Part shown: in pieces, positions 25,855 to 48,679 of the stretch | How the letters are laid out: each line of letters begins with the position of its first letter | Numbering within the stretch: the stretch's first letter is position 1 | NCBI RefSeq assembly: GCF_021026375.1 | Contig: NZ_JAJNDB010000005.1 | Location: 372,001 to 436,000 of the forward strand | Direction of reading: 5' to 3' | Origin: Actinomycetospora endophytica | GTDB taxonomy: Bacteria; Actinomycetota; Actinomycetes; Mycobacteriales; Pseudonocardiaceae | DNA length: 64,000 nt | Notes under the pieces: generated by a model | What the model saw: only the letters and a program-made list of their open reading frames with translations | Databases searched by the model: none | Told to the model about the DNA's origin: nothing | Position numbers and translations under genes: made by a program

Positions 25855-26160
25855 ATGTCCGTGTACGTGTACCGGTGCGACGAGGACGGCCCCGTCGAGA
25901 TCGTGCGCCCCATCGGGACCGCTCCGGCGGTGATCCCGTGCCCGACCTGCGGCGTCGAGGCCCGACGGAGCTTCACCGCGCCGATGCTCGGCCGCTCCGG
26001 CGGCGACCAGAGCGGGCGGGGCGAGCGGATGGCGGCCATCGACCGGGCGGAGGCCTCCCGGACCGAGCCCACCGTGGTGTCCGCGCCGCCGCCCCGGAAC
26101 TCCCAGCCCCGTCGAACGCCTCGTCTCGATCCCCGGACCGCGGCGCTGCCACGTCCATAG
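25855..26160 (+). CDS. FmdB-like small zinc-ribbon protein
   Basis: The 101-aa protein starts like FmdB-family proteins (VYVYRC.. then IPCPTCG) and ends in a basic, Pro/Arg-rich disordered tail. FmdB was named from the formamidase locus, where a regulatory role is suspected. The first cysteine pair is broken: after Cys8 the expected second Cys is replaced (CDED), leaving three cysteines. AGGGGG precedes the start by eight bases. Its stop TAG is the first three bases of a palindromic repeat. It is the first gene of the amide operon after the candidate operator. Confidence 0.75.
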   Translation: MSVYVYRCDEDGPVEIVRPIGTAPAVIPCPTCGVEARRSFTAPMLGRSGGDQSGRGERMAAIDRAEASRTEPTVVSAPPPRNSQPRRTPRLDPRTAALPRP

Positions 26161-26232
26161 GTGCGCTCCGCGCTCGTGAGCAGTAATTGACGCTATAGCA
26201 GCAATTACTGCTCACGAGCGCGACGCGCACCT
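26158..26232. repeat. Palindromic repeat copy 1 (TAG-GTGCGC family)
   Basis: The core is a perfect 20-bp hairpin (26170-26189 with 26202-26221, 12-base loop), enclosed by outer arms GTGCGC (26161-26166) and GCGCAC (26225-26230). The left end supplies the TAG stop of the fmdB-like gene. It lies between two plus-strand genes, so read-through or attenuation into amiS/ureI may occur. Other copies are at 28270, 32129 and 48598. Confidence 0.85.
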
Positions 26233-26254
26233 CTCGAAACCGAAGGGAACACCG

Positions 26255-26332
26255 ATGATGCTGCGTCCCCCGATGACGGCCACCCCCGTTCCACGACACC
26301 GCACCTCCCGACGGGTGCCGCGCCATGGCTAG
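26255..26332 (+). CDS. Possible 25-codon leader ORF overlapping the amiS/ureI start
   Basis: The ORF begins ATGATG six bases after GAAGGGA and ends at TAG (26330-26332). It overlaps the downstream ATG at 26325 by eight bases. The downstream gene has no ribosome site of its own, so translation of this short basic peptide could deliver ribosomes to it. The peptide is Pro/Arg-rich, unlike anything I know, and could be chance. Confidence 0.3.
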   Translation: MMLRPPMTATPVPRHRTSRRVPRHG

Positions 26333-26963
26333 CGTCGGGCTGCTCTTCGTCGGCGCCGTGCTGTTCGTCAACGGCGCCATGCTGCTGGGCTGGGTGGACG
26401 GACGCTCGGCCGCGCCGATCAACTTCTTCGTCGGCGCCCTCCAGATCATCACCCCCACCTACCTGATCTTCACCGCGAACGGCGACGCCGACACGATCCT
26501 GGCGGCGTCCGGGCTCTACCTGTTCGCCTTCACCTACCTCTACGTCGGGCTCAACCTCACGTTCGACCTGGACAGCACCGGACTCGGCTTCTTCTGCCTG
26601 TTCGTCGCGATCTGCGCGGTGATCTTCTCGGGGATCAACTTCGTGCACTTCCAGGACAACGGCCTCGGCGTCATCTGGCTCTACTGGGCCTTCCTGTGGA
26701 CGCTCTTCTACATCCTGCTCGGCCAGAAGCGCGCCGGGATCGAGCGCTACACCGGCGCCGTGTGCGCCATCCAGGGCTGGGTCACCGCGTTCATCCCGGC
26801 CTTCCTGCTGCTGACCGGCGTCTACAAGCAGGTCGTCAACCCCCTCGCGATCGCCCTGGCGATCTTCGGCGTGGTCGTCTTCCTCGCCCTGATCCCGTGG
26901 GCACGCCGATCGCGGACGCCGGCCGCCCCGGCCCCCACGGTCGACCAGCCCGCCGTCGTCTGA
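26325..26963 (+). CDS. AmiS/UreI-family amide or urea channel
   Basis: The 212-aa protein has six or seven transmembrane helices and the AmiS/UreI phrases GLLFVGAVLFVNGAMLLGW, PINFFVGALQ, YLYVGLN and FYILLGQKR. UreI is a proton-gated urea channel; AmiS is its relative in amidase operons. With formamidase 55 bp downstream, short amides such as formamide or acetamide, or urea, are the likely substrates. The start has no ribosome site and may depend on the short overlapping ORF upstream. Confidence 0.92.
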   Translation: MASVGLLFVGAVLFVNGAMLLGWVDGRSAAPINFFVGALQIITPTYLIFTANGDADTILAASGLYLFAFTYLYVGLNLTFDLDSTGLGFFCLFVAICAVIFSGINFVHFQDNGLGVIWLYWAFLWTLFYILLGQKRAGIERYTGAVCAIQGWVTAFIPAFLLLTGVYKQVVNPLAIALAIFGVVVFLALIPWARRSRTPAAPAPTVDQPAVV

Positions 26964-27018
26964 ACGGCGCCGTCGCCCCACCCTCACTCACCGCACGATC
27001 CGATCAGGGAGAGATCCG

Positions 27019-28272
27019 ATGCCGAAGCCGGTGTTCCCGCTCGACAGCAAGAGGAAGTTCACCGATCAGGCCCTCATCGGCCACAACCGTTGGCACCCCG
27101 ACATCCCGGCCCAGGTGCAGGTCAAGCCGGGTGACACGTTCCGGGTGGACTGCCGGGAGTGGTTCGACGGCGCGATCGTCAACGACGACTCCGCCGACGA
27201 CGTCCTCAACGCGCCGCTCGCCGGGGTCCACGTGCTCTCCGGCCCGATCGCGGTCGAGGGCGTCCAGCCGGGCGACCTGCTCATCGTCGACATCCTCGAC
27301 GTCGGGCCGATCCCGCAGGAGGACACCGGCCCGCTGGCCGGCCAGGGCTGGGGCTACACCGGCGTGTTCGCCACCCGCAACGGCGGCGGCTTCCTCACCG
27401 AGCAGTTCCCGGACGCGTACAAGGTGATCTGGGACTTCCGGGGCGGACAGGCCACGTCGCGGCACGTCCCGAACGTGTCGTTCACCGGGATCGTCCACCC
27501 CGGACTGATGGGGACCGCGCCCTCGCACGACCTGCTGCGCAAGTGGAACGCCCGCGAGCAGGCGCTCATCGACACCAACCCGACGCGGGTCCCGGCGCTG
27601 GCGCTGCCGCCCAACCCGGACTCGGCGATCCTCGGGTCGCTGTCGGGCTCCGACTTCGAACGCGCCCGCAACGAGGCCGCCCGCACCGCGCCGCCCCGGG
27701 AGAACGGCGGCAACCAGGACATCAAGAACTTCACGAAGGGCAGCCGGGTCTTCTACCCGGTCTTCGTCGAGGGCGGGAACCTCTCGATGGGCGACCTGCA
27801 CTTCTCGCAGGGCGACGGCGAGATCACGTTCTGCGGCGCGATCGAGATGGGCGGGTTCATCGACCTGCACGTCGACGTCATCAAGGGCGGGATGGCCACC
27901 TACGGGGTCACCGAGAACGCCATCTTCATCCCCGGGAACACCGACCCGCAGTACAGCGAGTGGATCGCGTTCTCCGGCACGTCGGTGACGCTCACCGGGG
28001 AGCAGCGCTACCTCGACTCCCACCTCTCGTACCAGCGGGCCTGCCTGCACGCCATCGACTACCTGATGACGTTCGGCTACACCGACATCCAGGCCTACAT
28101 GATCCTGGGCGCCGCGCCGATCGAGGGCCGCCTGTCCGGGGTCGTCGACATCCCGAACTCGTGCTCGACGGTCTACATCCCGACCGGCATCTTCGACTTC
28201 GACGTCAAGCCCGGGAAGAACGGGCCGGCGAAGATCAACCCCGGTATGGGTGTACCGAAGGCCGCCGCGTAG
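27019..28272 (+). CDS. fmdA: Formamidase (acetamidase/formamidase family)
   Basis: The 417-aa protein matches FmdA formamidases over its whole length, including an N-terminal MPKPVFPLD start, NRWHPDIPA, GWGYTGVFA, FTGIVHPGLMG and the MGDLHFSQGDGEITFCGAIEMGG block. It hydrolyses formamide to formate and ammonia. GGGAGAG lies before the ATG. With FmdB and AmiS/UreI it forms an amide-nitrogen acquisition set. Its TAG stop lies inside a palindromic repeat that also ends the convergent amidohydrolase gene. Confidence 0.95.
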   Translation: MPKPVFPLDSKRKFTDQALIGHNRWHPDIPAQVQVKPGDTFRVDCREWFDGAIVNDDSADDVLNAPLAGVHVLSGPIAVEGVQPGDLLIVDILDVGPIPQEDTGPLAGQGWGYTGVFATRNGGGFLTEQFPDAYKVIWDFRGGQATSRHVPNVSFTGIVHPGLMGTAPSHDLLRKWNAREQALIDTNPTRVPALALPPNPDSAILGSLSGSDFERARNEAARTAPPRENGGNQDIKNFTKGSRVFYPVFVEGGNLSMGDLHFSQGDGEITFCGAIEMGGFIDLHVDVIKGGMATYGVTENAIFIPGNTDPQYSEWIAFSGTSVTLTGEQRYLDSHLSYQRACLHAIDYLMTFGYTDIQAYMILGAAPIEGRLSGVVDIPNSCSTVYIPTGIFDFDVKPGKNGPAKINPGMGVPKAAA

Positions 28273-28346
28273 GTGCGCTTCGCGCTCGTGAGCAGTAATT
28301 GATGCTCTGGCGTCAATTACTGCTCACAGGCGCGTCAGCGCACCTA
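28270..28346. repeat. Palindromic repeat copy 2, bidirectional terminator
   Basis: The core hairpin has perfect 15-bp arms (28288-28302 with 28313-28327) and a 10-base loop, TGCTCTGGCG. Outer arms are AGGTGCGC (28271-28278) and GCGCACCT (28338-28345). The left end holds the TAG stop of formamidase and the right end holds the TAG stop of the convergent amidohydrolase. Confidence 0.88.
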
Positions 28347-29555
28347 TTCCTTGTGGAACCGCCCCTCCTTCATGATCGCCTGGATCCGGTCGTGGTCCTG
28401 GAGGATCGTGATGTCGGCCAGCGGGTCGCCGTCGACGAGGATGAGGTCGGCGAGGTAGCCGGGCTGGACCTGGCCGAGCTCGTCGGGCCGCATCATGATC
28501 TCGCCGCCGAGCTTGGTCGCCGACAGGATCGCCTCCATCGGCGTGAACCCGAGGTACTCGACGAAGTGCTGCAGGTCCCGCGCGTAGGTGCCGTGCGGGG
28601 TCCAGGCGAAGCCGTAGTCGCCGCCGGGAACGATCCGGATGCCACGACGGTGCATCTCCCGCAGGCCCTCGACGGCGATCTCGAGCTCGCGCTTGTAGCC
28701 GACCGCCTCGGCGGCCTCCTGCGGGAACCCGAAGGCCTCCGCCTCGTACAGGGTGGCGATGAGCCAGTTGATGCCCGGCCCGACCCAGACCCAGTCCTTG
28801 TTGGCCTCGAGCATGTCCATGCCTTCTTCGTCGGTGAAGGAGGCGTGGTAGATGATGTCGACGCCGTTGCGCACGCACATCTTGACGCTCAGGCCGGAGC
28901 GGGCGTGGGCACAGACGCGCTTCCCGCGCCGATGGGCCTCGGCGACGGCGGCGGCCACCTCCTCGTCGGAGAAGTAGGTGTCCTCGGCGCGCATCGTGCC
29001 GGTGATCTCCTCACCGGTCATCGACAGCTTGATCTGGTCGACGCCGATGTCGATGAGCTCGCGGACGGCCACCCGCATGCCCTCGGGACCGTCGGCGAAC
29101 TTGGTGATCGACTTGATGATCGCGCCGCCCGTCGTCGCGATCTCGGGCCCGTTCGCGAGGTAGTGCGGGCCCGGGATGCGCCCGGCGTTGATCGCGTCAC
29201 GGCACACGACGTCGAGGCGCTCCTTCGCCGACGCCGCCCCCAGACACATCGTGTAACCGGAGTCGAGGTACTTCTTGGCCGACTCCACCGCGAAGAGCAG
29301 GTGCTCCTCGACGGGCATGTGGCCCAGCCCGTCGAGATCCGCGGAGTTGTTCCAGGTGAAGTGCGTGTGCGCGTCGCACAGCCCGGACATCAGCGTCCGG
29401 CCGCGCCCCTCGACGACACGGGCCCCGTCGGCCCTGTTCGGTTCGACGGTGCCGACGCCGGCGATGCGGTCGTCCTCGACGAGCACGTCGCCGGGGTACG
29501 GATCAGCACCGGTGGAGTCGAGGATCGAGACGTCGCGGAACAGGACCTTGCTCAT
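28344..29555 (-). CDS. Metal-dependent amidohydrolase (imidazolonepropionase-like)
   Basis: The 403-aa amidohydrolase-superfamily enzyme has the metal motif DAHTHF near residue 61, a conserved lysine region (QIKLSMTGEE), HAR and YHASF histidines, and GGDYGFAW for the late aspartate. The closest types are imidazolonepropionase-like and Xaa-Pro dipeptidase-like amidohydrolases, which hydrolyse cyclic amides, ureas or dipeptides. It is the last of three minus-strand genes with an alpha/beta hydrolase and an FAH-family enzyme, suggesting stepwise breakdown of one compound. The real substrate is unknown. Confidence 0.87.
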   Translation of the reverse strand: MSKVLFRDVSILDSTGADPYPGDVLVEDDRIAGVGTVEPNRADGARVVEGRGRTLMSGLCDAHTHFTWNNSADLDGLGHMPVEEHLLFAVESAKKYLDSGYTMCLGAASAKERLDVVCRDAINAGRIPGPHYLANGPEIATTGGAIIKSITKFADGPEGMRVAVRELIDIGVDQIKLSMTGEEITGTMRAEDTYFSDEEVAAAVAEAHRRGKRVCAHARSGLSVKMCVRNGVDIIYHASFTDEEGMDMLEANKDWVWVGPGINWLIATLYEAEAFGFPQEAAEAVGYKRELEIAVEGLREMHRRGIRIVPGGDYGFAWTPHGTYARDLQHFVEYLGFTPMEAILSATKLGGEIMMRPDELGQVQPGYLADLILVDGDPLADITILQDHDRIQAIMKEGRFHKE

Positions 29556-29597
29556 GAGGGACTCCTCGCCATCGAGGGGATTCGGTTGTGGGTCGGG

Positions 29598-30362
29598 TCA
29601 GAAGAACTTGATGAGGTGCTCGGTCACCTCGACCGGGCGCTCGAGCGCCGTCCAGTGGCCGCAGTCGTCGAGGACGTCGAGGGTCGCGGCGCCGTGCGCG
29701 TCGGCGAGGGACCGGCTGATCTCCGGGCGACCGACGCCGTCGTCGGACCCGGTGACGAGCAGCAGCGGGAGGCTCCGGTCGACCGGGCCGGGGTCGGGGG
29801 CGCCGGCGAGCGCCTCGCAGGAGCGGGCGTAGCCCTCCGGGTCCTGGCGCAGCACGAGCTCGCGCACGGCGGCAGCCGTGCCCGGACGGTCGCGGCGGGT
29901 CGCCTCGGCGGTCGCGTTGCCCATGACGGCGTCGGCGATCGCCGGCATCTCCCCCGCGCGCGCCTTGGCCGCCCGGTCGTGCTGCCCCTGCTGCCCCGCC
30001 TCGGGCAGCGGCGCGGGGACGGCGCCGAGCAGCGCGAGGTGGGAGACCAGGTCGGGTCGGGTCGCGGCGAGGAGCCGGACCGTGATCGTGGCCATCGAGT
30101 GCCCGACGACGCGGGCCGGGCCGGTGCCGACCTGCTCGAGCAGGGCCGCGAGGTCGTCGGCGAAGCCCTGGATGGACAGCGTCCCGGTCACCGGGGAGCG
30201 GCCGGAGCCCTCCATGTCCGGGCGGACGACGGTGAACCGCTCGGCCAGGGCCGCTACCTGCGGTTGATAGAAGTTCGACGTGCCGCCGAGGCCGTGGACC
30301 AGCAGGACCACCGGGCCGTCGCCGGTGATCTCGACCGCCAGTTCCTTGCCGTTGACCTTCAC
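29598..30362 (-). CDS. Alpha/beta hydrolase
   Basis: The 254-aa hydrolase has VLLVHGLGG for the oxyanion region, the nucleophile elbow GHSMA, a late Asp in VTGSDDGVG and the catalytic His in DDCGHWTALERP. Such proteins in catabolic operons often cleave C-C bonds, esters or lactones. It lies 42 bp upstream of the amidohydrolase and 31 bp downstream of the FAH-family gene in one operon, presumably under the divergent GntR regulator. Confidence 0.9.
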   Translation of the reverse strand: MKVNGKELAVEITGDGPVVLLVHGLGGTSNFYQPQVAALAERFTVVRPDMEGSGRSPVTGTLSIQGFADDLAALLEQVGTGPARVVGHSMATITVRLLAATRPDLVSHLALLGAVPAPLPEAGQQGQHDRAAKARAGEMPAIADAVMGNATAEATRRDRPGTAAAVRELVLRQDPEGYARSCEALAGAPDPGPVDRSLPLLLVTGSDDGVGRPEISRSLADAHGAATLDVLDDCGHWTALERPVEVTEHLIKFF

Positions 30363-30393
30363 GTGCTCGTCCTCCTACGGGGTTGTGCGGGGT

Positions 30394-31269
30394 TCAGCGG
30401 ACGGTGTTGCGGATGGCGCCGAGGCCGGTGATCGCGCACTCGACGACGTCGCCGGGCTGCAGGAAGCGCGGTGGCTCGAACCCGATCCCGACGCCGGCCG
30501 GGGTCCCGGTGGCGATGACGTCCCCCGGAAGCAGCGTCATCCCGGCGGAGATCACGCGGATCAGCTCGGGAATGTCGAAGATCAGGTCCGCGACGGGGGC
30601 CTTCTGGCGCGGCTCCCCGTTGACGGTGCTGGACACCTCGAGCGCGGTCACGTCACCGACCTCGTCGGCGGTCACCGCCCACGGGCCCATCGGCGCGTGG
30701 GTGTCGAGCGACTTGCCCAGCAGCCACTGCTTGTGGTCGCGCTGCACGTCGCGAGCGGTGACGTCATTGACGATCGTGTAGCCCCAGACGTGTTCCGGGG
30801 CCTGGTCGTAGGAGATGCCCCGACCACCCCGGCCGATGATGACGGCGAGCTCGGCCTCGTAGTCGAGCTCGGCCGTGACCGACGGGTGGGCCTCGACGTC
30901 GTCGTACGGGCCGGTGACGCTCGTCGTCGCCTTGGAGAAGACGATCGGCTTGGCCGGCAGGTCCTCGGAGCGCTGCGGGGTGTCGTAGCCGGAGCGGCCG
31001 AACTCGGCGACGTGCTCGCGGTAGTTCTTCCCGACGGCGAACAGGTCGCGCCGGGGCATGGGCATCGGGGCGCGCAGGGTGGGGCGTGCGATGCGCGGCA
31101 GGTCGTGCACGGCGGCGATCCGCGGCGCCAGACGGTCCCAGTCCTCGATGACCTCGAGCAGCGACCGCTCCCCCAGCACCGGGCCGAGGTCGAACACGGT
31201 CACCTCGTCGGTCGGGTCGATCAGCCCGACGGCCTCGCGATCCCCGACCGCGAACGTCACCAGCTTCAC
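30394..31269 (-). CDS. Fumarylacetoacetate hydrolase (FAH)-family protein
   Basis: The 291-aa protein has the FAH C-terminal domain: VGKNYREHVAEF, KPIVFSKATTS, LDYEAELAVIIG, GYTIVNDVTARD, and a late LLPGDVIATGTPAGVG. Family members hydrate, decarboxylate or hydrolyse 2-oxo acids at the end of aromatic and related catabolic routes, using Mg2+ bound by the Glu/Asp in these motifs. It is the first gene of the three-gene operon and faces the GntR regulator across 169 bp that carries paired TGGTC sites. Confidence 0.92.
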   Translation of the reverse strand: MKLVTFAVGDREAVGLIDPTDEVTVFDLGPVLGERSLLEVIEDWDRLAPRIAAVHDLPRIARPTLRAPMPMPRRDLFAVGKNYREHVAEFGRSGYDTPQRSEDLPAKPIVFSKATTSVTGPYDDVEAHPSVTAELDYEAELAVIIGRGGRGISYDQAPEHVWGYTIVNDVTARDVQRDHKQWLLGKSLDTHAPMGPWAVTADEVGDVTALEVSSTVNGEPRQKAPVADLIFDIPELIRVISAGMTLLPGDVIATGTPAGVGIGFEPPRFLQPGDVVECAITGLGAIRNTVR

Positions 31270-31281
31270 GGGACCTCCCTG

Positions 31282-31311
31282 GGTGCGCTACTCACAGGCG
31301 CGGAGCGCACC
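31282..31311. repeat. Shrunken remnant of the TAG-GTGCGC palindrome family
   Basis: Outer arms GGTGCGC (31282-31288) and GCGCACC (31305-31311) remain, and the interior CTCACAGGCGCG resembles the right half of copy 2, but the AATTG core hairpin is missing. It lies just upstream of the FAH-family start, so it is now part of a promoter region rather than a gene end. Confidence 0.5.
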
Positions 31312-31317
31312 GATCGA

Positions 31318-31333
31318 GACCAATCAGGACCAT
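31318..31333. promoter_or_regulatory. Candidate GntR operator, FAH side
   Basis: Read on the minus strand, this is ATGGTC-N4-TTGGTC, a direct pair of TGGTC half-sites. A matching pair lies on the regulator side at 31419-31436, which supports one regulator acting on both divergent promoters. Confidence 0.45.
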
Positions 31334-31418
31334 TGACGGCGTGTGGTGCTTCACATCGCGGCGTTGTCCCGACCGTACGACGCCGCGATTCGCGTGCCAA
31401 TAGCACGACAACCGCGTC

Positions 31419-31436
31419 ATTGGTCTAATATTGGTC
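31419..31436. promoter_or_regulatory. Candidate GntR operator, regulator side
   Basis: ATTGGTCTAATATTGGTC contains two TTGGTC half-sites five bases apart and ends two bases before the ATG of the GntR gene, so binding would block its own transcription or translation. FCD-type GntR sites often contain TGGT/ACCA half-sites. Confidence 0.5.
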
Positions 31437-31438
31437 GC

Positions 31439-32140
31439 ATGGCCGCACCAGTCAGCCGTGAGACGGCAGGCCCCGTCGTCGCCCGCCTGAAGGCACTGCT
31501 CGACGAGGCGGTCGCCGCCGGGACGCTCGGGACGGGCGCGAAGATCCCGACGGAGCGGGCGCTGTGCGAGACGCTGCAGGCCTCCCGGACCGCGGTGCGC
31601 TCGGCGCTGGCCGAGCTGGAGCGCGAGGGCCGGATCACCCGGCACGTCGGGCGGGGGACGTTCCTCGCCGAGCTCGAGGCCGATCCGGGGCTGCCCGCCG
31701 TCGCGCGCGGAGCCGTGCAGACCAGCCCCGCCGAGATCATGGCGACCCGGCTGCTGCTCGAGCCCGAGGTCGCCGCGCTCGCCGCCCGCCACGCCACCCA
31801 GGCCGACATCGACCACATCCGGCACTGCCTGCGCCGCGGCGACGCGACGACCACCTACGACGAGTTCGAGGCCTGGGACTCCGCACTGCACCGCGCGATC
31901 GCGGCCGCGGCGCACAACGGGCTGCTGCTCCGGCTCTTCGACACCATGAACGCCGCGCGCGACCTCCCGGTCTGGGGCAGCCTCAAGCGCCGCACCGCGA
32001 CCGCCGAGCGGCGTCGCGAGTACGAGCGCTGCCACGGCGAGATCGTCGCGGCGCTCGTCGAACGCGATCCGGACGCGGCCCGCGAGCACATGCGCGGACA
32101 CCTCGTCGACGTCCGGACGAATCTGCTGGGCGCTCCGTGA
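31439..32140 (+). CDS. FCD-domain GntR-family regulator
   Basis: The 233-aa regulator has an N-terminal GntR winged helix (GAKIPTERALCETLQASRTAVRSALAELEREGRI... GRGTFL) and a C-terminal all-helical FCD domain (EIMATRLLLEPEVAALAARHA, FHRAIA-like LHRAIAAAAHN, and HGEIVAAL..RDPDAAREHMRGHL). FCD domains bind organic acids through a metal site. It is divergent from the FAH/hydrolase/amidohydrolase operon and is its likely repressor, relieved by a pathway intermediate. Its stop lies within palindromic repeat copy 3. Confidence 0.93.
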   Translation: MAAPVSRETAGPVVARLKALLDEAVAAGTLGTGAKIPTERALCETLQASRTAVRSALAELEREGRITRHVGRGTFLAELEADPGLPAVARGAVQTSPAEIMATRLLLEPEVAALAARHATQADIDHIRHCLRRGDATTTYDEFEAWDSALHRAIAAAAHNGLLLRLFDTMNAARDLPVWGSLKRRTATAERRREYERCHGEIVAALVERDPDAAREHMRGHLVDVRTNLLGAP

Positions 32141-32204
32141 GCTTGTGAGCAGAAATTGACGCCAGAGCCTCAATTACTGCTCACGAGCGCCGGAGGCGCA
32201 CCTA
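32129..32204. repeat. Palindromic repeat copy 3, bidirectional terminator
   Basis: The core arms 32145-32159 and 32170-32184 pair over 15 bases with one A-A mismatch; the loop is CGCCAGAGCC. The right outer end GCGCACCTA supplies the TAG stop of the DUF5995 gene. The left outer arm (GCGCTCCG) lies within the last codons of the GntR gene, which uses TGA. Confidence 0.8.
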
Positions 32205-32945
32205 CAGGTGGGCGTGCAGGATCCCCAGCCCCCAGACCGCGGCGATGTGATCGCGTCGCTCCTCCTGCGCGGCGCGGTACTCCTCCCAGTCGGGGTCGTC
32301 GTGGTGCGCCCACATCGACATCGCCGCGTCCCAGGCGAAGTCCCGGGTGTCGCGGACGAGCAGGTCGCCGAACCAGTTGCCGAGCCGGTCGAGCAACGGC
32401 CCGTCGTCCGAGAACGGCGAGTGGAACTGGTGGCGCAGCATGTTCATGTTCGCGTAGAAGATGTCGTTGATCCGGTTGTAGTCGCGGTGCTGGGCGTCCC
32501 GCTCGGCCGGGCTGGAGTGCGTCTCCCAGGTGGTGAGCAGCGCGAACGCCAGGTCGAAGTTGACGTGGGCGTTCACGCCGGCCGCCGCGTACTCGAGCGT
32601 GGGCACCGAGTCGTCGGAACGGCAGGAGAACAGCACCTCCCAGCACTTCGGCACGCGCCCGACGCCGTTCGTGAGGGCCTTGATCGCCGCGAGGTACCGG
32701 CACGCGAAGGCCACGTCGAGGTCGATGATGAAGGTCCCGGCCTCGAAGGACCCGGCATTCACCGCGTCCTGCACCCCGCAGGTGATCTGGTGGTAGAGCG
32801 TGGTGAAGGCCGCGATCCCGTCCTCCTCACCGCGCGGGACCACCAGCTGCGCGGCCTTCTTGACCGCATCCAGCGTCTCGATCACCGCCGGGACGTCCGT
32901 CGGATCGGTACTCACCGCCGTGCCCAGTGCGTCGTTGACTCCCAT
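32202..32945 (-). CDS. DUF5995-family protein
   Basis: The 247-aa protein resembles DUF5995, a helical family found widely in actinobacteria; characteristic phrases are FTTLYHQITCGVQ, HVNFDLAFAL, DYNRINDIFYANM and LGILHAHL. Conserved His, Asp and Asn residues could bind metal, but no reaction is known. The start is ATG. It lies 23 bp after the giant LuxR regulator in the same direction, so the two are probably co-transcribed. Confidence 0.8.
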   Translation of the reverse strand: MGVNDALGTAVSTDPTDVPAVIETLDAVKKAAQLVVPRGEEDGIAAFTTLYHQITCGVQDAVNAGSFEAGTFIIDLDVAFACRYLAAIKALTNGVGRVPKCWEVLFSCRSDDSVPTLEYAAAGVNAHVNFDLAFALLTTWETHSSPAERDAQHRDYNRINDIFYANMNMLRHQFHSPFSDDGPLLDRLGNWFGDLLVRDTRDFAWDAAMSMWAHHDDPDWEEYRAAQEERRDHIAAVWGLGILHAHL

Positions 32946-32968
32946 GTCATCCCCCTGTCGGTGGGCGC

Positions 32969-35900
32969 CTACCGCGCCCGCACCCGTTGCAACAGCGCCG
33001 CCGCCTGAGTGCGCGAGCGCGTGTTCGTCTTGCGGAGCACGTTCGACACGTGCACCGCGACCGTCCGTTCCTGCAGCCCGAGCCGGCGCCCGACCTGACG
33101 GTTCGTCAGGCCCTCGGCCACCGCGGCCAGCACCTCGTGCTCGCGGGGTGTCAGGGCGGAGAGCTCCGGGGCGCGCGACGGCGACGACGGCGCCGCGGAC
33201 CCGTCGGCCGCCTCGTCGGCCAGCGCGCCGCTGGACAGGCCGGCGCGGGCGGCGATCGCCTCGATCTCGCGCAGGAACGGGGCGGCCCCCATCTCCCGGG
33301 CGGTGTCGGCCGCCGCGCGCAGGCACGCCCGGACCTCGCTGGAGGGCTTGCGGCCCGCCCCGAGCAGCGCGTCCGCCCGGCGCAGCTGCGCGTACGCGGC
33401 CGGGTAGGGGTTGAGCAGGGCGCTCCACCGCTCGGCGACGTCGCGCCAGGCCTCCGGATCCGCGGCGCCCTGCGCGCGCTTCAGCTCGGCCCGGCACATC
33501 CGCGAGTACGCGATCATCGTGCGCCGCAGCGCCGGGACGATCGAGGGGATGCGCCCCTCGAGGTCGTGGAGCCGGTCCACCAGACGCCGGACGGCCTCGG
33601 CGTCGCGATCGCCGTGCGCCGCGGCCTCCGCCTCGGCCCGCAACCCGTGCCAGAGCAGCGGCGCGACGATGAAGACGTCGTCGGGGTGCCGGTCGACGAC
33701 GTCGAGGCCCGCCGTCACGAACTCCCGGGCCTCGCCCGGCCGCCCCTCCCACATCTTCATGCCGGAGCGCAGCGTCAGCAGCGGCACCTGTCGTCGTTCC
33801 CCCGCCGTCGAGGACAGCAGCTCGACCGCCCCGAGGTCCTGGTCGGCGGCGCCGAACTCACCGCGCCCCACGAGCAGCCGGACCCGCGCGAGCCGGATCT
33901 CCAGGGCCTCGGCGCCCATCGGCCGCAGCGCCCACGCCTCGTCGATCGCCTCCTGGGCCTCGGCCCACCGCCCGAGCCGGAACAGCCCGTTCGCGACCAA
34001 CGCCAGCAGGCCGACCCCGAAGGTGCGCGCCAGCCCCAGCTCGCGCATCCGCGCGACGCCCTGGCGCGCGAGCTCCACCCCCTCGGCGATCTCGCCCAGC
34101 GGGCCCACCAGCAGCTCCGACCAGTGCTGATAGGCACGGCCGACCCCCACCGCGTCGACGACCCGCTCCGCGACGGCGAGTCCCTCCGCCACCGCGGCCA
34201 GCCCGGCCTCCGCGTTCTCCCGGTAGGCCAGCGCGAACCCCAGGGTGACCAGCATCGAGACCTGCTCGACGTCGTCCCCGCCCGCCCGCGAGAGCGTGAG
34301 GGCCCGTTGCGCCTGCTCCTGGGCCTCCCGCACGTCGCCGTCGGCCAGCAGCGCGTCGGCGCGGACCGCGTGCAGCGCCGCCAACTGCCGCGACGGCGCG
34401 ATCGCCGCCCCGGGCCCGGCCGCCACCCGGTCGGCGACGGTGGCCTCGACCTCCCGCACCGGCGCGTCGTCGAGCGCCTTGACGGCGTCGGCGGGGCGGC
34501 CGGCGTCGAGCAGGTAGCGCCCCAGCCTCGTCGCCAGCGTGATGTCCGTGCGGGGTTCGAGGTTCTCCAGCAGCTCCACGGCCCGCTCGTGCTCCCCCGC
34601 GAGATGGGCGACCTCGGCCGCCCGGCTGATCAGCACCGCGCGGTCCCGGCTGTCGTCGCCGGCCTCTCCGGAGGTCCCGCCGACGACGTCGCCCACCGTC
34701 AGCGCCCGCCGGATCGGCCCGGCCCGCAGCGCCCGCCGGTCGGTGAGCTCGAGGACCCGGGTCCACTGCCGGTGGGCGCCGCCGTAGTCGCGGAGGCGTT
34801 CGGTCACGCGGGCGGCGGCCGCGACGGCGTGCACCGCGGAGGCCACGTCCCCGGCGGCGTACCAGTGGTGGGCGCGGCGCAGCACCAGGTCCGTGCGGAC
34901 GTCCACCACGCCGACCCCGCCCGTCGCGGTCCCGTCCGCCGGGAGCTCGTCGAGCAGGCGGTCGAGCGCGAGCGCGTAGCGACGGTGCAGCTCGCGGCGC
35001 TCCCCCGGCATCAGCTCCTCGGAGATCACCTCGCGGATCAGGCCATGGCGCAGGGCGTAGCCGTCGGTGGCGGGGTCGACGACGACGAGCGCCGCGGACA
35101 CCGCGTCCCGCAGCGCCGACACCAGCGCGGGCTCGGAGAGCTGCACGACGTCGGACAGCAGACGGTGCGGCACCGGTTCCTCCCCGAGGGCCAGGGCCTG
35201 CACGACGGCGGTGGCGATCGGGCCCATCGGGGCGACGCGGCCGAGGACGAGGTCGCGCAGCGGGCCGGGGAGCGTCCCGTGCTCGCCGGCCGCGATCGCG
35301 CGCAGCGTCTCGGCGACGATGAACGCGTTGCCGCCGGAGCGCTCCCACACCCGGTCGACGAGCTCGGGGGCGTCGCCGACCGCGGCGCTCACCAACCGGC
35401 CGACGGTGCCCCGGTCGAGCGGCTCGAGGTCGCGGACGACGGCCCGCGGGTGGCGACGGAGCTCGGCGACCATCGTCTGCAGCGGATGCCGGTTCGTGAA
35501 CGCCTCGGGTCGCAGGGTCACCACGACGAACACCGGCTCGTGGTGCAGGTGTGCGGCGAGGGTGACGACGGCGTCGCGGGTCCCGGGGTCCGCCCAGTGC
35601 AGGTCCTCGACGGCGAGCAGCACCGGGGCCGCGTCGGCGAGCGTCGTCAGGACCCGGCGGATCAGCTCCAGCCCGTGCGCGCCCGGATCGACAACCTGTC
35701 CGGGCGCCGGGTCGAGCAGGGCGGGCAGCTCCGCGGCGATCGGGGCGAGTGCGGCGCGGGCGTCCTCGGCGGCGGCCGAGGCCGGGGCGAGCAGGCCGCG
35801 CAGCGCGGAGATCAGCGGCCAGAACGGCAGCTGGTCCCCCACGTCGATCGACGCGCCGGTGAGCACGAACGCGCCCTCGGCCTCGGCGTGATCGACGAGC

Positions 35901-36461: not shown

Positions 36462-36476
36462 TCCGGCGGCACCCGG

Positions 36477-38634: not shown

Positions 38635-38635
38635 G

Positions 38636-40456: not shown

Positions 40457-40541
40457 CGCGACCTCCCCCTGCGCCGATCACCGGCTGCGTGGCAGGAAGG
40501 TAGCGGAGGGCCCCGACGGTGAGCGGACGAGGTCGTCCGGG

Positions 40542-41177: not shown

Positions 41178-41258
41178 CTCCCGAACCTCCCCCGAACGTC
41201 GGTAGAGACTAGGCCACGTGAGCCAGCCGTGTGCTCAGATCGATGATCAGACCACACC

Positions 41259-42863: not shown

Positions 42864-42993
42864 CTCCGTGCCACCTCCCCGGTCATCCGCGCTGCCTCCC
42901 GCAGCATGCCTGGTGACCGGGGTCGGGCGCTGCCCCTGATGATCCTTCGGCAGAGCGGCAGGTTGGAGGAGGCCCGGGTGCGCGGTGAGGTCG

Positions 42994-43046
42994 AGGGAGC
43001 CGCTGCGGGTCGAGCGGATCTCCGTCTACCCGTACGGCGGCTCCCT
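42994..43046. repeat. 53-bp palindromic element, copy A
   Basis: Arms AGGGAGCCG (42994-43002) and CGGCTCCCT (43038-43046) enclose a central GGTCGAGCGGATCTCC. A second copy of exactly the same 53-bp length is at 57558-57610, with the same central block and one compensated arm change. This copy ends two bases before the stop of paralog B and may act as its terminator. Confidence 0.75.
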
Positions 43047-43048
43047 GA

Positions 43049-43681
43049 TCAGGCGTGGCCGTAGGTGACTTGGGCGCCCGAGGTCTGCAGCTGCTCCTTG
43101 CTGAAGCCGACGCCCTGGCCGGCGCTGGTCCCCACGGCGACGGTGTAGAAGTCGTCGGCGCCGCTGACGTTGGTGAACGTGAACGAGTACTGGCAAGCGT
43201 CCGCGTATCCGGACGAGTAGGTGTTCCACTGATCGAGGGCGGTCCCGGAGCCGGTCAGGGAACTCGTCCCGACCAGGTCGCCGTTCGACCCGAAGATCGA
43301 GACGGGCTTGCCCCTCATCGACGGGTTCTCGCAGGCCGAGCCCGGCATCACCACTCCGTTCATGCCGTAGACGGTCACGGAGCCGTTGATCGTCATCTTC
43401 GAGGTCTTCTGGGCGACCGTCCCGATGATCGCCACGGCCACGATCGCGAGAACGACGCCGAGGACGATCCAGCCCCAGCGCATGCCCGAGCGTCGCTGCG
43501 GAGTGGGCGCGCCGTAGCCCTGCCAGCCCATCGGCGGCAGGCCGGCCGGCGGAACCGGACCGCCTCCCGACTGCGACGGCACCTCGCCCCAGTGCACGCC
43601 GCGCTGGGTCGACACCCACGGGCCGACAGGCGATGCTGTCGCACCGCTGTCGACGCCCGACTGCGGCTGGGTCTTGGTCAT
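43049..43681 (-). CDS. Single-pass membrane protein with C-terminal extracellular domain, paralog B
   Basis: The 210-aa protein has a Pro/Gly-rich cytoplasmic head containing QRGVHWGEVP, one transmembrane helix (about 69-90) and an extracellular domain with two cysteines ending TSGAQVTYGHA. It is the paralog of 40542-41177, with the same domain order and cysteine positions. It is the first gene in the run paralog B, coiled-coil protein, paralog A, ABC exporter. The ATG is supported by GGGGAG upstream. The function is unknown; sensing or cell-envelope scaffolding is possible. Confidence 0.75.
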   Translation of the reverse strand: MTKTQPQSGVDSGATASPVGPWVSTQRGVHWGEVPSQSGGGPVPPAGLPPMGWQGYGAPTPQRRSGMRWGWIVLGVVLAIVAVAIIGTVAQKTSKMTINGSVTVYGMNGVVMPGSACENPSMRGKPVSIFGSNGDLVGTSSLTGSGTALDQWNTYSSGYADACQYSFTFTNVSGADDFYTVAVGTSAGQGVGFSKEQLQTSGAQVTYGHA

Positions 43682-43905
43682 CTCGGCTCCCCGATGGCGT
43701 GGTCGGCGCCGCACCACCGCGGGCCGTCGGCGGGCTTCTCGACGCCGCCCGGTCCGGCGTTACGGCGGTGTCGCTCGTTCGGGTGGGTTCGTCGCCAGCA
43801 CTCTGATCAGCGGTAACGCCGTTCGGGCCGCGGCGATGAGGGGATCGAGCTCGCGGGGGCCGCTCCCTCGCGAACGGTTCACCCACCATCGCCCGGAGCC
43901 CGACG

Positions 43906-44934
43906 ATGACCACTCCCCCGGCCGAGCGCCTGCCCGACCTCGCGGTCCTGTTCCCGTTCCGCGCCTGGCTGCGCCACCCCGCGCTGCGGGCGTGGACGAC
44001 GTGGTTGTTCGTCGCGCTCGTCGCGGTGCCGCCGGCTGCGCTGGTCCTGTTCTCCGGCGCCGACAGCTTCAACGGCATCGCGACGGTGTTCGCGGCCTAC
44101 TTCGCGGCCGCCTGGTTCCTCCTTCTTCGCGCGCTCGTCCGACCGAGGGCTGTGAGCGGCGGACTCCTCGCTCAGGTGGTGATCGTCGCGCTGCTCGTCG
44201 AGGCACCTCTCGCCGTCTGGCTCGAGAGAGCTCTCGGAGCGAACACCGATTCCCTCGCGTCGAGCGTGTTCGCCGTCGGAGTCCCCGAAGAGCTCGCCAA
44301 GCTGCTTCCGGTCCTTGCACTCGCCCTGTTCCACCGACGGAGCGGCCTCGTGCCGCGCGACGCCCTCTTCCTCGGCGCTGTGAGCGGTCTGGTCTTCGGG
44401 GCCGGCGAAGCGGTCACCTACGTCACCCAGTACATGCCGGAGGCTGGCCTGCTCGGTGTCGGCGGGGCGATCCTGACGGTGTGGCGCTTCGTCACGGACC
44501 CCGTGGTGCACGCGTTGTGGGCCGGGATCGGCGGCTACTTCGTCGGACTCGCCATCCAGTTCCGGACTCCCGGAAGGGCCTGCGCGCTGGTCGCTCTCGG
44601 CCTCGCCGTGGCCGCGGTCCTCCACGGCGTCAACGACTGGCTCGGTGTCAACGTCCTCTGGGTTCTGGTCGACGTCGTCAGCGCGCTGCTGTTCCTCGCG
44701 TACGCCCGGATCGGGCTCGTCGCGGCACCGCGCACGCCCCGGCCCGCCATCCCTGCGGCCCCGCAGCTGTGGGGTCCGCCGGCGGCGGCGATGTCGACTC
44801 CGGCGCCGGCCGCAGCCGCGCGGACCGTCGCACCCAGCACGTCGGTGCCGGCACCCCGTACCGGCGGCCGGCACGCCGTGGCGGACGAGGACCCGGTGAC
44901 GGCCCCGATCGCTCTAGCGACCGCTCGGCTCTGA
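43906..44934 (+). CDS. PrsW-family intramembrane metalloprotease
   Basis: The 342-aa protein has about eight transmembrane helices with the PrsW motifs on three of them: PEELAK (Glu128, Glu129, Lys132), FGAGEAV (Glu168) and DPVVHALW (His202), which together form the metal site. PrsW in Bacillus cleaves the anti-sigma factor RsiW. No anti-sigma or sigma gene is nearby, so the substrate is unknown. The tail after residue 285 is a disordered Pro/Ala stretch. A hairpin terminator follows. Confidence 0.92.
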   Translation: MTTPPAERLPDLAVLFPFRAWLRHPALRAWTTWLFVALVAVPPAALVLFSGADSFNGIATVFAAYFAAAWFLLLRALVRPRAVSGGLLAQVVIVALLVEAPLAVWLERALGANTDSLASSVFAVGVPEELAKLLPVLALALFHRRSGLVPRDALFLGAVSGLVFGAGEAVTYVTQYMPEAGLLGVGGAILTVWRFVTDPVVHALWAGIGGYFVGLAIQFRTPGRACALVALGLAVAAVLHGVNDWLGVNVLWVLVDVVSALLFLAYARIGLVAAPRTPRPAIPAAPQLWGPPAAAMSTPAPAAAARTVAPSTSVPAPRTGGRHAVADEDPVTAPIALATARL

Positions 44935-44973
44935 CCAGAGCGGCCGACGCGGCACCGGTCCACGGTCGTCGAC

Positions 44974-45040
44974 CATGATCACCGGGATGACGAGCTTGTG
45001 ATGCCTGGGCGTCCAGATCCTCGTCGTCCTGGTGATCATG
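44974..45040. terminator. Long hairpin downstream of the PrsW gene
   Basis: Arms 44974-44994 and 45020-45040 pair at 19 of 21 positions with a 25-base loop; the outer ATGATCACC/GGTGATCAT part is perfect. It lies 40 bp past the stop and probably terminates the gene. Confidence 0.7.
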
Positions 45041-45238
45041 CGCTCGGGCGGACGTCAGCCGGCTCCAGCCGTGTGCGCGCCGCACACGCTCTCCGAGCGC
45101 AAACCGGAGCAATCTCCCAGATATTAGACCGTCAGAGTGAATACTCTGGCTTCGACATGACTGACCGTGACTTCATGCTCCTCACACGGCCGCCCGGCCC
45201 CGCGGCGGTCCGGCCCGACGTCCGGTGAGGACACCCCG

Positions 45239-45748
45239 ATGACTCAGCAGATGCCCGCCTCCCCCGAGCAGCCCCTCCCGCCGTCGTACGGAGCGGCTCC
45301 GCAGACGCCGGCGCCCGCCCGGGGCACGAACACGATGGCGATCCTCGCCCTCGTCTTCGCGTTCGTGTTCTCCCCGCTCGGCATCGTCTTCGGGATCATC
45401 GGGCGCAAGCAGACCGCCCGCACCGGGGAAGGCGGCCGTGGGCTGGCCACCGCCGGCCTGGTCCTGTCGATCGTGTTCCTCGTGATCGGCATCGCCACGG
45501 CGGTCCTCGTCACCGTGATGGCCGCGACCCTGGTCAGCTCGGTGAACAACACCGCCGTCGCGGCGCAGATCACCGCCCAGTCCGGCGGCCGCGTCACCGA
45601 CGTCAGCTGCCCCGGCTCGCTGCCCGCTCAGGTCGGAGCCGAGTTGACCTGCTCCGGCACGGTCGACGGAGCGCCGAGCCAGCTGAAGGCGACGGTGACC
45701 TCGGTCGACGGCGGCGTCGTCTCGTTCGACTTCACGCAGGTCGGCTGA
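45239..45748 (+). CDS. DUF4190 membrane protein with DUF4333-like C-terminal domain
   Basis: The 169-aa protein has a Pro-rich cytoplasmic head, two transmembrane helices in the DUF4190 pattern (NTMAILALVFAFVFSPLGIVFGIIGRKQ and GLATAGLVLSIVFLVIG), and an extracellular DUF4333-like domain with a cysteine pair (VTDVSCPGSLPAQVGAELTCSG). The domain combination is common in actinobacteria and its role is unknown. A 6-bp inverted repeat, CAGAGT/ACTCTG at 45133-45148, lies about 90 bp upstream. Confidence 0.85.
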   Translation: MTQQMPASPEQPLPPSYGAAPQTPAPARGTNTMAILALVFAFVFSPLGIVFGIIGRKQTARTGEGGRGLATAGLVLSIVFLVIGIATAVLVTVMAATLVSSVNNTAVAAQITAQSGGRVTDVSCPGSLPAQVGAELTCSGTVDGAPSQLKATVTSVDGGVVSFDFTQVG

Positions 45749-45754
45749 CGCCTC

Positions 45755-45794
45755 GTGCGTGCGTTTCCGTGCTGGAGCACGGAAACGCACGCAC
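45755..45794. terminator. 19-bp-arm perfect hairpin terminator
   Basis: Perfectly complementary 19-base arms (45755-45773 and 45776-45794) with a 2-base loop lie seven bases past the DUF4190 stop and before the LysR gene, which is on the same strand. Confidence 0.8.
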
Positions 45795-45894
45795 ATGCCT
45801 CAGGCGAAGAATAGCGATACGGTCGAGGCATCACCGCAGCTCACAGCACTGAAACGGCCCGGATATCCGACCCGGGGCGCGATACCGTGAGGAC

Positions 45895-46803
45895 ATGAGC
45901 GAGTCGTCGACCGCCGCCGACCTGGACCTGCGCCTGGTGCGCTACTTCGTCGCGGTCGCCGAGCACCGGCACTTCGGTCGGGCGGCGGCGGAACTGGTGA
46001 TCACGCAGCCGTCGTTGAGCCGCCAGATCCGTCGCCTCGAGCAGCAGGTCGGGGCAGGACTGCTCGACCGGACGCCGCAGGGCACCCGACTCACCGAGGC
46101 CGGCGAGGTGTTCCTCGCCGACGCGAAGGCGCTGCTGCGGGCCGCCCGGTCGTCGGTGTCACGGACGCGGGCTGCGGCTCAGCCGCGCCGGGTCACCGTC
46201 GGGTACACGACCGGGGTGATCGCGACGCCGGCCGTGCTCGCGATGCGTCGCCGGCACCCCGACGCCGAGGTCACCATCCGCCACCTCGACCTCCCGACCG
46301 CCCGGACCGACCTGCTCGACGGCGAGGTCGACGCCGTCGTCACCCGGCTCCCGTTCGCCAGCGACGGACTCACCGTGACGGTGCTGTACGACGAGCCGCG
46401 GGTCCTCGTCGTGCCGCTTAACCACCGGTTCGCCGGCAAGGAGTCGGTGACGTTCGACGACATCGCCGACGAGCCGCTGCCGCACCTGCGCGGCACCGAC
46501 CCGGCGTGGGCGGCCTACTGGCGCCTCGAACCGCGACCCGACGGTCGTCCGGCGCCGGACGGTCCCGTCATCGAGGCCATGGAGGACAAGTTCGAGGTGA
46601 TCGCCGCCGGCGAGGCCGTCGTCGTGATGCCGGACATCGGGGTGCAGCACCTCCGTCCGGACCTCACGACGGTGAAGATCGCCGACGTCGAGCCGAGCCA
46701 CGTCGTCGTCGCGACCCGGGCCGGCGACCGCAACCGGCTCGTCGCGGAGTTCCGCCGCTGCGCGCAGGAACTGCTCACCGGACCGGAGCCCGGGAGCGCC
46801 TGA
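45895..46803 (+). CDS. LysR-family transcriptional regulator
   Basis: The 302-aa protein has the LysR helix-turn-helix (RLVRYFVAVAEHRHFGRAAAELVITQPSLSRQIRRLEQQVG, about residues 12-52). An effector-binding domain follows, with the inter-domain TVGYTTGV strand and a late EVIAAGEAVVVMP segment. It most resembles the group that regulates oxidoreductase or aromatic genes. The quinone-oxidoreductase-like gene begins 58 bp downstream on the same strand and is the probable target or partner. Confidence 0.92.
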   Translation: MSESSTAADLDLRLVRYFVAVAEHRHFGRAAAELVITQPSLSRQIRRLEQQVGAGLLDRTPQGTRLTEAGEVFLADAKALLRAARSSVSRTRAAAQPRRVTVGYTTGVIATPAVLAMRRRHPDAEVTIRHLDLPTARTDLLDGEVDAVVTRLPFASDGLTVTVLYDEPRVLVVPLNHRFAGKESVTFDDIADEPLPHLRGTDPAWAAYWRLEPRPDGRPAPDGPVIEAMEDKFEVIAAGEAVVVMPDIGVQHLRPDLTTVKIADVEPSHVVVATRAGDRNRLVAEFRRCAQELLTGPEPGSA

Positions 46804-46861
46804 CCCGGTCCGGTGCGACGATCCGGTGCCGAAGCGATCGGACGACGGCGAGGGAGCGGTC

Positions 46862-47767
46862 ATGCGGGCGTACGGGTTCACGACGGTCGGCGGGCCCGAC
46901 CACGAGGCGTTCCTGGACGTCGAGGTCCCTGAGCCCGGCCCGGGCGAACTGCTCGTCGCCGTCCGGTCCTCCGGGGTGAACCCCGGCGACTGGAAGGTCC
47001 GCGACGGGGCGTACGGCATCGCCGGACCCGCCGTCCTGGGCCGGGAGGTGGCGGGCCGCGTGGTCGCGGTCGGACCCGACGTCGAGGGGTTCGCCGTCGA
47101 CGACGAGGTGTTCGGCGGCTGCCCCGGGATGGTCGGCGGCTGGGCCGAGCAGGCGATCGTTACCGCGGGCTTCGCCGCGCACCGTCCGGCGGCGGTGAGC
47201 CCGGAGCAGGCGTGCGTGCTCCCGGTCGCGGCGGGCACGGCGCTCGACGCACTGCACCAGCTCGATCTCGCCGCGGGCGCGACGCTGCTGGTCAACGGCG
47301 CGGGCGGTGGGGTCGGCGTGGTCCTCGTGCAGCTCGCCGCGGCGCGGGGAATCCGCGTCGTCGCGACGGCGAGCCCCGCCAAGCACGCCCTGCTCGCCCG
47401 GCTCGGCGCCACGCCGGTCGCCTACGGGGACGGCGTGGTCGAGCGGGTCCGCGACGCGGCGCCCGACGGGATCGACGCGGTGTTCGACCTCGTCGGCGGC
47501 GACCCGCTGCGCACCGTCGCCGAGCTGCTGACCGACCGGCACCGTCTGATCTCCATCGCCGACTACGGGCTCTCGACCGAGCTCGGCGGACAACAGCTCG
47601 TCCGCGACCGCAGCACCGCGGTGCTCACCGAGCTCGCGGGCCTCGTCGCCGACGGTTCGCTGAACCCGCACGTCACCAACGTCCGCTCCTTCGACGACGC
47701 CCCGGCCGCGCTGGCCCTCGTCGAGCAGGGGCATGCGACGGGGAAGGTCGTGATCGACGTCGGGTGA
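46862..47767 (+). CDS. Zinc-independent quinone oxidoreductase-like MDR protein
   Basis: The 301-aa protein is a medium-chain dehydrogenase/reductase: SSGVNPGDWKVRDG, VLGREVAGRVVAVG, and the NADPH motif NGAGGGVGVVLVQLA. No structural or catalytic zinc cysteines are seen, which fits the QOR/enoyl-reductase branch that reduces quinones or alpha,beta-unsaturated carbonyls with NADPH. GGGAG precedes the ATG. It follows the LysR gene, consistent with inducible detoxification. Confidence 0.9.
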   Translation: MRAYGFTTVGGPDHEAFLDVEVPEPGPGELLVAVRSSGVNPGDWKVRDGAYGIAGPAVLGREVAGRVVAVGPDVEGFAVDDEVFGGCPGMVGGWAEQAIVTAGFAAHRPAAVSPEQACVLPVAAGTALDALHQLDLAAGATLLVNGAGGGVGVVLVQLAAARGIRVVATASPAKHALLARLGATPVAYGDGVVERVRDAAPDGIDAVFDLVGGDPLRTVAELLTDRHRLISIADYGLSTELGGQQLVRDRSTAVLTELAGLVADGSLNPHVTNVRSFDDAPAALALVEQGHATGKVVIDVG

Positions 47768-47874
47768 GCGGGTCGATGTCGGGCGAGCGAGCGACGTCGG
47801 GCGAGCGGGGCGATTCGGGGGAGGCACCGCGTGCCCGGCTGGTCGCGGGGCGTCGACCGTGGTCGGGTGGTCGC

Positions 47875-48600
47875 ATGAGCTCGCGCGGACAGCTGCCGGA
47901 GGGCAACGGCCCGGACGAGGCGCCGTGGTGGCCCGCCGACGGTCCGTGGGGCGGGCGCGGGCGGACGTCGGTGCTGCTGGTGCTCGGCGGGCTGGCGGTG
48001 GTGGTCGTTGTGGTGCTCGCGGTGACGTTCCTGAGCGGCGGCGAGTCCGACTCGGGCTCCGCCGCGGTCAGCGGCCCTCCCCCGCCGGTGCTCGCGAGCG
48101 AGGGGCTGCAGCCGGGGACGCGGGTGACCCTGGCCGGGGTTCCCTACGACGTCGGGGTCGGGGCGTTCACCCCGAGCACGCGGGCGGCGCCGAGCGGGTC
48201 GCACCTGCTGCTGGCGTCGCTGGTGGTGCGCAACGCCGGGTCGGGACCGGTGCCGAATCCGCTGTCCGGGTCCGCGGGCCTGCTGGTCGCGGTCGGGTTG
48301 CACTCGCTGCCGCCGTCGGTGCTGACCGGTCCGTCCGCGCTGCTCTGCCGCAACACCCCGGCGGCGTCACCGCTCGCGCCGCCGTCGCCGATCTTCCGCG
48401 GTCTCGAGCCGGGGGCGTGCGTGCTCGACGGGCGGGCGGCGCCGTCGGGCGCGGCGAGCCCGACGCTCGCTCCCGGGGAAGCGGCGCAGGGCATCCTGCT
48501 GTCCTCGCCGGTGCCGGACGTCGTCACCGGCGCCACGCCGTCGGTGTGGGTGCAGACGACGCCGGGTCCGCCGGCTCAGTACGAGCGCGTGGGTGCGTAG
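47875..48600 (+). CDS. Single-pass membrane protein, extracellular domain of unknown function
   Basis: The 241-aa protein has a short cytoplasmic head containing PWWPADGPWGG, one transmembrane helix (about 32-52) and an extracellular domain rich in Pro, Ser and Val. Two cysteines (LLCRNTP, GACVLDG) may pair. It could be a DUF4352-like surface domain, given the LLLASLVVRNAGSGPVPNPL segment; this is tentative. An ATG at 47776 would add 33 residues of low-complexity sequence. Its TAG stop lies in palindromic repeat copy 4. Confidence 0.65.
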   Translation: MSSRGQLPEGNGPDEAPWWPADGPWGGRGRTSVLLVLGGLAVVVVVVLAVTFLSGGESDSGSAAVSGPPPPVLASEGLQPGTRVTLAGVPYDVGVGAFTPSTRAAPSGSHLLLASLVVRNAGSGPVPNPLSGSAGLLVAVGLHSLPPSVLTGPSALLCRNTPAASPLAPPSPIFRGLEPGACVLDGRAAPSGAASPTLAPGEAAQGILLSSPVPDVVTGATPSVWVQTTPGPPAQYERVGA

Positions 48601-48679
48601 GTGCCTAGGTGCCTGCGGCTCGTGAGCACTAATTGACGCCAGAGCATCAATTAGTGCTCACGAGCGCGAAGCGCACCTA
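48598..48679. repeat. Palindromic repeat copy 4, bidirectional terminator
   Basis: The core has perfect 19-bp arms (48618-48636 with 48647-48665) and loop CGCCAGAGCA, which is the exact reverse complement of the copy 2 loop, so this copy is inverted relative to it. In the arms one G-C pair of copy 2 is replaced by C-G. The outer ends supply the TAG stops of both convergent genes. The left outer arm is duplicated (TAGGTGCC twice). Confidence 0.88.

Follow-up and report, generated by a model that had tools for sequence, protein, structure and literature searches.

The question raised by a 64,000-nucleotide stretch of the Actinomycetospora endophytica genome (contig NZ_JAJNDB010000005.1, positions 372,001 to 436,000; hereafter the window) is how four copies of one short hairpin element came to lie over the stop codons of neighboring genes, and why the copies resemble each other. 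The elements belong to a multicopy family in which the central hairpins, here called cores, are alike within a species and not by locus, with a weak locus signal retained in the outer arms. The explanation preferred here, held with moderate confidence, is a gene-end repeat family resembling repetitive extragenic palindromes (REPs) and bacterial interspersed mosaic elements (BIMEs), which lacks a REP-associated tyrosine transposase (RAYT) and whose cores have been homogenised by copying.

Plan of the element and size of the family

The unit is a non-coding sequence of approximately 76 bp. It starts with the outer end (T)AGGTG, followed by a side hairpin with a stem of 3–5 bp (e.g., GCGC, GGCC, GCC, or GCGAC) and a TNC-type loop (e.g., TCC, TTC, TGC, or TGAC), two linker bases, and the motif GTGAGCA, which opens a central hairpin of approximately 18 bp; the remainder is the mirror image. 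The following copies are located in the window:

26157–26233, no strand: element copy 1, central hairpin at 26176–26215, right end CTC
28269–28346, no strand: element copy 2, central hairpin at 28288–28327
32126–32204, no strand: element copy 3, central hairpin at 32145–32184, 74 bits
48598–48605, plus strand: short duplicate of an element end (TAGGTGCC), directly before copy 4
48605–48679, no strand: element copy 4, central hairpin at 48622–48661, left TAG at 48606–48608

The original prediction, made from the letters of the window, described four copies of a single palindrome ending in TAG and CTA. All four were recovered at their places by a model built from 24 copies (74 to 97 bits), but the ends are less uniform, with CTC at the right end of copy 1 and no left TAG in copy 3. 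The left TAG of copy 1 (26158–26160) is the stop codon of an open reading frame for an FmdB-like zinc-ribbon protein (25855–26160), and the AmiS/UreI gene follows from 26325. Copy 2 provides the stop of the acetamidase/formamidase gene on its left (TAG, 28270–28272) and of a minus-strand amidohydrolase gene on its right (CTA, 28344–28346). At copy 3, the GntR/FCD gene stops at a TGA within the left arm (32138–32140), and the right CTA (32202–32204) stops a minus-strand DUF5995 gene. The gene stopped by the right CTA of copy 4 (48677–48679) lies on the minus strand and has no match in Pfam. The predicted use of TAG at six of seven gene 3′ ends was confirmed, with the gene left of copy 3 as the only exception. 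Left of copy 4 the stop is indeed a TAG, but the one that ends the frame picked by the gene caller lies at 48598 in the duplicated end, whereas the element's own TAG is at 48606. Such an element-end duplicate (48598–48608, TAGGTGCCTAGGTGCC) is not general among the elements. Copies 2–4 are located between convergent genes and copy 1 between co-directional genes, as had been described.

The expectation of a dispersed family was borne out, further copies being abundant throughout the genome (6.98 Mb, 96.67% complete) and beyond chance. A half-arm pattern had 152 forward and 147 reverse matches, whereas its reversed control had 1 and 0, and a full-core pattern found approximately 150 near-consensus copies. 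The model scored at least 150 places in the whole genome, both strands counted. Applied to contiguous, unselected stretches of this genome with a total of 1.256 Mb, it returned 127 strand matches, which merged into 64 elements and extrapolate to roughly 350 per genome, old copies counted. At C13:232680 and C10:493829 (contig:position), arms without a centre were found, apparently elements that have lost the central hairpin. Another element is located at a contig end (C14:529721–529800; C14 comprises 529866 bases), and the repeats may thus break the assembly.

As a multicopy repeat, the family is restricted to the genus Actinomycetospora among the searched genomes of its taxonomic family and order. 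The full core matched in 3 of 297 genomes of the family, all three belonging to the genus. Half-arm matches with at most one mismatch were present in 14 of 18 genus genomes, at 1 to approximately 160 per strand, a tally that includes chance matches in coding DNA among the low-copy congeners; G189, G135, and G219 are examples of genomes poor in elements. Among 397 genomes of the order, the arm pattern was multicopy only in A. endophytica and genome G042, and 34 others had one or two matches each. The core-type pattern of G042 and G098 matches Actinomycetospora chiangmaiensis DSM 45062. The A. endophytica core itself had no match in a collection of named genomes, from which the genome of the window may be absent.

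The view of the element as one palindrome maintained by compensatory change was only partly upheld. In silico, the window's GCGC-type copies indeed form one long stem, the arm pair that changes from G-C to C-G between copies 2 and 4 with both sides altered is real, and the loops of these two copies are exact reverse complements. The decisive changes, however, are those inside the individual outer arms and those that distinguish the central stems of different species. Arm covariation was analyzed in 48 parsable elements (96 arms) out of the 52 that scored at least 60 bits. From the GCGC sequence, 37 of the 96 arms deviate; 33 of these 37 are still self-complementary (2000 shuffles: mean 7.9, maximum 14), and none is matched by the opposite arm. 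Since the deviating arms pair within themselves and not with each other, the conserved plan of the family consists of three hairpins, not one palindrome. The loops of an element's two arms are likewise independent (9 equal pairs, 8.8 expected).

Gene 3′ ends and stop codons

Genes were called with a simple codon-usage script; the 1101 genes that it yielded (stops: 864 TGA, 213 TAG, 24 TAA) do not include the FmdB-like gene next to copy 1. The 64 elements are faced by 103 gene 3′ ends, and 97 of these stop inside the element, in agreement with the claim that the repeat ends reading frames. Four of the other six are flush with the element border, one stops short of it by four bases (copy 4), and one lies at a distance of 458 bases because the FmdB-like gene of copy 1 was not called. 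Stop frames and orientations were evaluated for the 52 elements with at least 60 bits. According to the coding score, the reading frame runs into the element at 73 of 104 ends, 50 of them in frame 0, which leads to the terminal TAG, 8 in frame 1, and 15 in frame 2; the TAG frame is over-represented (p = 9e-10). The stop was the terminal TAG in 43 run-in ends and a TAG three bases further in for one; elsewhere, genes stop at a TGA or TAA inside the element. In this way the repeats set the ends of many proteins, and the tails that the element encodes in frames 1 and 2, among them RCAPRS and GALRAREQ, are a trap for annotation. The TAG frame may be favored because a frame-0 end leaves the protein unchanged, in which case selection would keep such copies.

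The T of the TAG is retained in 44 of 50 frame-0 ends, compared to 23 of 54 others (p = 9e-7). Even the latter value is an over-representation of T before AGGTG outside the TAG frame. It would fit a transposon similar to miniature inverted-repeat transposable elements (MITEs) that prefers stop codons or TA sites, inserted independently in each species, and whose core types represent active subfamilies. No target duplication was seen at the elements. A TA duplication in particular was considered but found no support: at 31 non-run-in ends, the A of AGGTG is retained in 28 and the T in only 16. Anchoring of one end at a stop codon with the other end placed at random was not shown either, because the frame pairs of the 25 two-sided elements (11, 11, 3) fit independence (10.9, 11.2, 2.9).

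With respect to the neighboring genes, 32 of the 52 elements are located between convergent, 19 between co-directional, and one between divergent genes. Convergent junctions are strongly enriched (32 of 52 elements, compared to 155 of 1047 other junctions; p = 1.4e-13). Convergent pairs without an element often keep a real gap (more than 20 bases in 88 of 155), so plain insertion into gaps does not describe the situation.

This enrichment is also what ordinary, non-mobile bidirectional terminators would display if they were selected at convergent ends and resembled each other by function only. For either strand, the window copies are predicted to fold stably (z −6.4 to −11.1), and the gap behind moeZ holds unrelated hairpins in many congeners. 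As with intrinsic terminators, a stable hairpin covers the stop codon or follows it directly. However, the scan of positions 26000–33000 scored no intrinsic terminator at copies 1–3, which are not followed by a T-tract; the sole site in this region (minus strand, 28239–28260) is outside the elements. Moreover, family members share letters, not structure alone, down to the species-specific central stem, and function would leave the likeness of cores within a species unexplained. An exclusively terminator-based origin is accordingly regarded as improbable. For a mobile family at gene ends, the folded RNA may nevertheless mark or protect mRNA 3′ ends and limit read-through in both directions. No known RNA family was matched; Rfam returned no hit in the window above the curated gathering threshold.

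Shared junctions and species-specific cores

The position of the last residue of moeZ is shared by 17 of 17 congeners. The stop codon is TGA in 15 of them and TAG in G210, which has an element there, and in G250, which has none. At dapD, an element was detected by pattern only in G210 among 16 congeners, and the gene ends at the same residue in eight and one residue later in the other eight. The elements thus arrived at pre-existing gene ends, and in many cases they now fill the interval between the two stops completely. At C10:108328, G118 was the only one of 14 congeners with a flagged element; the gap in G210 is 2 bases long, and in A. endophytica the tail of the right gene is replaced by an element-coded one. 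In some congeners, the moeZ gap contains other long palindromes, for example GAACGAACGCGCCGTTCGCTGC...GCAGCGAACGGCGCGTTCGT, which resemble repeat families of their own.

A comparison covering many junctions was made with one species alone, the sister species G210. For 39 A. endophytica elements, the pattern search revealed an element at 23 of the corresponding G210 junctions, one of which has doubtful flanks (C13:233390), leaving 22. The apparently empty G210 junctions do not retain the surroundings of both stops, and a clean empty site was not found among those compared.

The core of G210 itself is nTGTCGsTATAsCGACAn (approximately 130 copies in that genome), with TTTCTGGkG as a second type. 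The same core type occurred in only 2 of the 22 orthologous pairs, with core classes defined by us and three unclassified A. endophytica cores counted as different. The edit distance between cores was 10.3 for orthologues and 10.5 for non-orthologues, compared to 8.6 within A. endophytica and 8.5 within G210; orthologous cores are no closer than chance (permutation p = 0.36). Arms, by comparison, differed by 12.0 in orthologues and 13.4 in others (permutation p = 0.0026). At C10:556005, an unusual right arm is common to both species, and at C13:168857 both arms agree; in both cases the cores differ. The letters of the core depend on the species, and the outer GTGAGCA part is constant.

This pattern is best accommodated by the copying explanation named at the outset. 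Copying would have carried the sequence both to elements already present and to new gene ends. Where a gene end was already occupied, the centre of the older copy may have been overwritten, by recombination or by re-insertion, which would render the cores of each species alike. In a more restrictive version, which we consider possible but not probable, the repeats are fixed at gene ends over species time and only the central hairpins are rewritten in concert, species by species. The copying activity would then recognize the conserved arms and the GTGAGCA base of the stem, and half-changed cores, e.g., those at C12:396912 and C13:168876, would represent rewriting intermediates. Cores with halves of different types were observed in A. 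endophytica at these two loci and at C14:54372.

Several observations weigh against copying with replacement. Neither a transposition event nor an enzyme was seen, and at 16 of the 39 junctions the pattern search detected nothing in G210, although in one of these cases the G210 contig breaks off within an apparent element. At several shared junctions (C10:99633, C10:173748, C10:235175) the boundary is shifted by a few codons, so independent insertion fits there as well as replacement. The arm-orthology signal is modest, A. endophytica holds further core types besides its main one, and the in silico preference of the GCGC-type window copies is for one long stem over three hairpins. Finally, no enrichment of older arm remnants was seen next to elements (14 of 104 element ends, 120 of 983 gene ends); the remnant hairpin pattern occurred at 10 of 104 element ends and 51 of 983 gene ends. 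Nested remnants are striking at copy 4 and at C13:47550, but were not used as evidence of replacement because of the lacking overall enrichment.

The shifted boundaries and the coexistence of several core subfamilies in one genome could equally be produced by the MITE-like transposon introduced above. On the other hand, the 22 of 39 junctions in common with G210 are more than a site preference would easily give, no element was flagged in the other congeners at moeZ (16) and dapD (15), and the arms keep a locus signal. No target duplication was observed, and of the 25 genes framed by close element pairs, the 20 that were scanned include none that looks like a transposase. Independent insertion is therefore considered the less likely account.

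The dependence of the core letters on the species next to an invariant GTGAGCA would also be expected if the elements were binding sites of a chromosomal or regulatory protein with a recognition sequence that changes from species to species, the copies following the protein. The elements, however, are found at the 3′ ends of genes, in register with the stop codon, and not at promoters, the cores vary within one genome, and hundreds of sites would need a change on both strands. We therefore assign this idea a very low probability.

Relation to known repeat families

GTAG-REPs, described by Di Nocera et al. in 2013 (PMC3733652), are small hairpins that frequently form inverted dimers, and the spacer in between can fold as well. 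They are described there as located mostly between convergent and unidirectional open reading frames, near their 3′ ends, with termini that often give TAG to the flanking frames and with species-specific variants. The supply of TAG by repeat ends is thus already published. The family described here is similar in that it consists of short hairpins present in many copies, lies mostly at the 3′ ends of genes, and has a convergent bias. It differs from GTAG-REPs in that only AGGTG with a preferred T is conserved and no GTAG tag, and in its fixed three-hairpin unit of approximately 76 bp. The word Actinobacteria is absent from the paper.

True GTAG-REP dimers, moved by a RAYT that was lost or missed in the assemblies, would account for the outer TAG ends, the opposed hairpins, the TAG given to flanking genes, and the convergent bias (PMC3733652). 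A G precedes the TAG in only 26 of the 50 frame-0 ends and in 12 of the 31 ends that are not run into. The Y1_Tnp domain of RAYT-type enzymes (PF01797) was not matched in any of the 18 genus genomes, some of them incomplete, compared to 5 of 14 positive controls; other HUH families were not part of this search. Membership in the GTAG-REP/RAYT system was rejected because the tag is not conserved and the transposase was not found, and a lost or overlooked RAYT is highly unlikely to be the explanation. If any enzyme acts on the elements, it is, within the limits of this search, no transposase of the Y1 (RAYT) type.

ERIC, YPAL, RUP, and other MITE-like repeats are short, palindromic, and non-autonomous, lie near genes, can fold as RNA, and have a TA target duplication. 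The present family differs from them in sequence and length, and no TA target duplication was shown for it. Mycobacterial interspersed repetitive units (MIRUs) overlap the stop codon of a flanking gene, as does this actinobacterial repeat, but they are direct repeats between co-directional genes, whereas the elements described here are hairpins between convergent genes. Neisserial DNA uptake sequences have species dialects and form inverted terminator pairs at gene ends. A function as uptake sequence was rejected because no single motifs occurred: in the 1.256 Mb sample, all 92 half motifs were inside elements.

New are the actinobacterial family itself, its fixed unit of three hairpins for which no RAYT could be detected, and the sites shared between species with species-specific cores. 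A literature search, which left out most subscription journals, retrieved no description of the family. The question of whether REP-like repeats spread by transposition or evolve by gene conversion reportedly goes back at least to a 1988 review by Higgins and colleagues. Since two related species share many element positions, the centres differ, and the genus has no detectable RAYT, this question is now open to a direct test.

A sister family in A. endophytica (C13:235883, C10:47488, C10:545944, C10:553664) has the same ground plan with the core GTGAGTGGATTTGGTCG..., and at C13:191612 both convergent stops are likewise located inside a stem of this kind. At the junction occupied by the element C10:362354 in A. 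endophytica, G210 (C1:821300–822500) contains two near-identical copies of an unrelated palindrome (GAGTGGACTCCCACGGCTGC...) between the same TAG and CTA.

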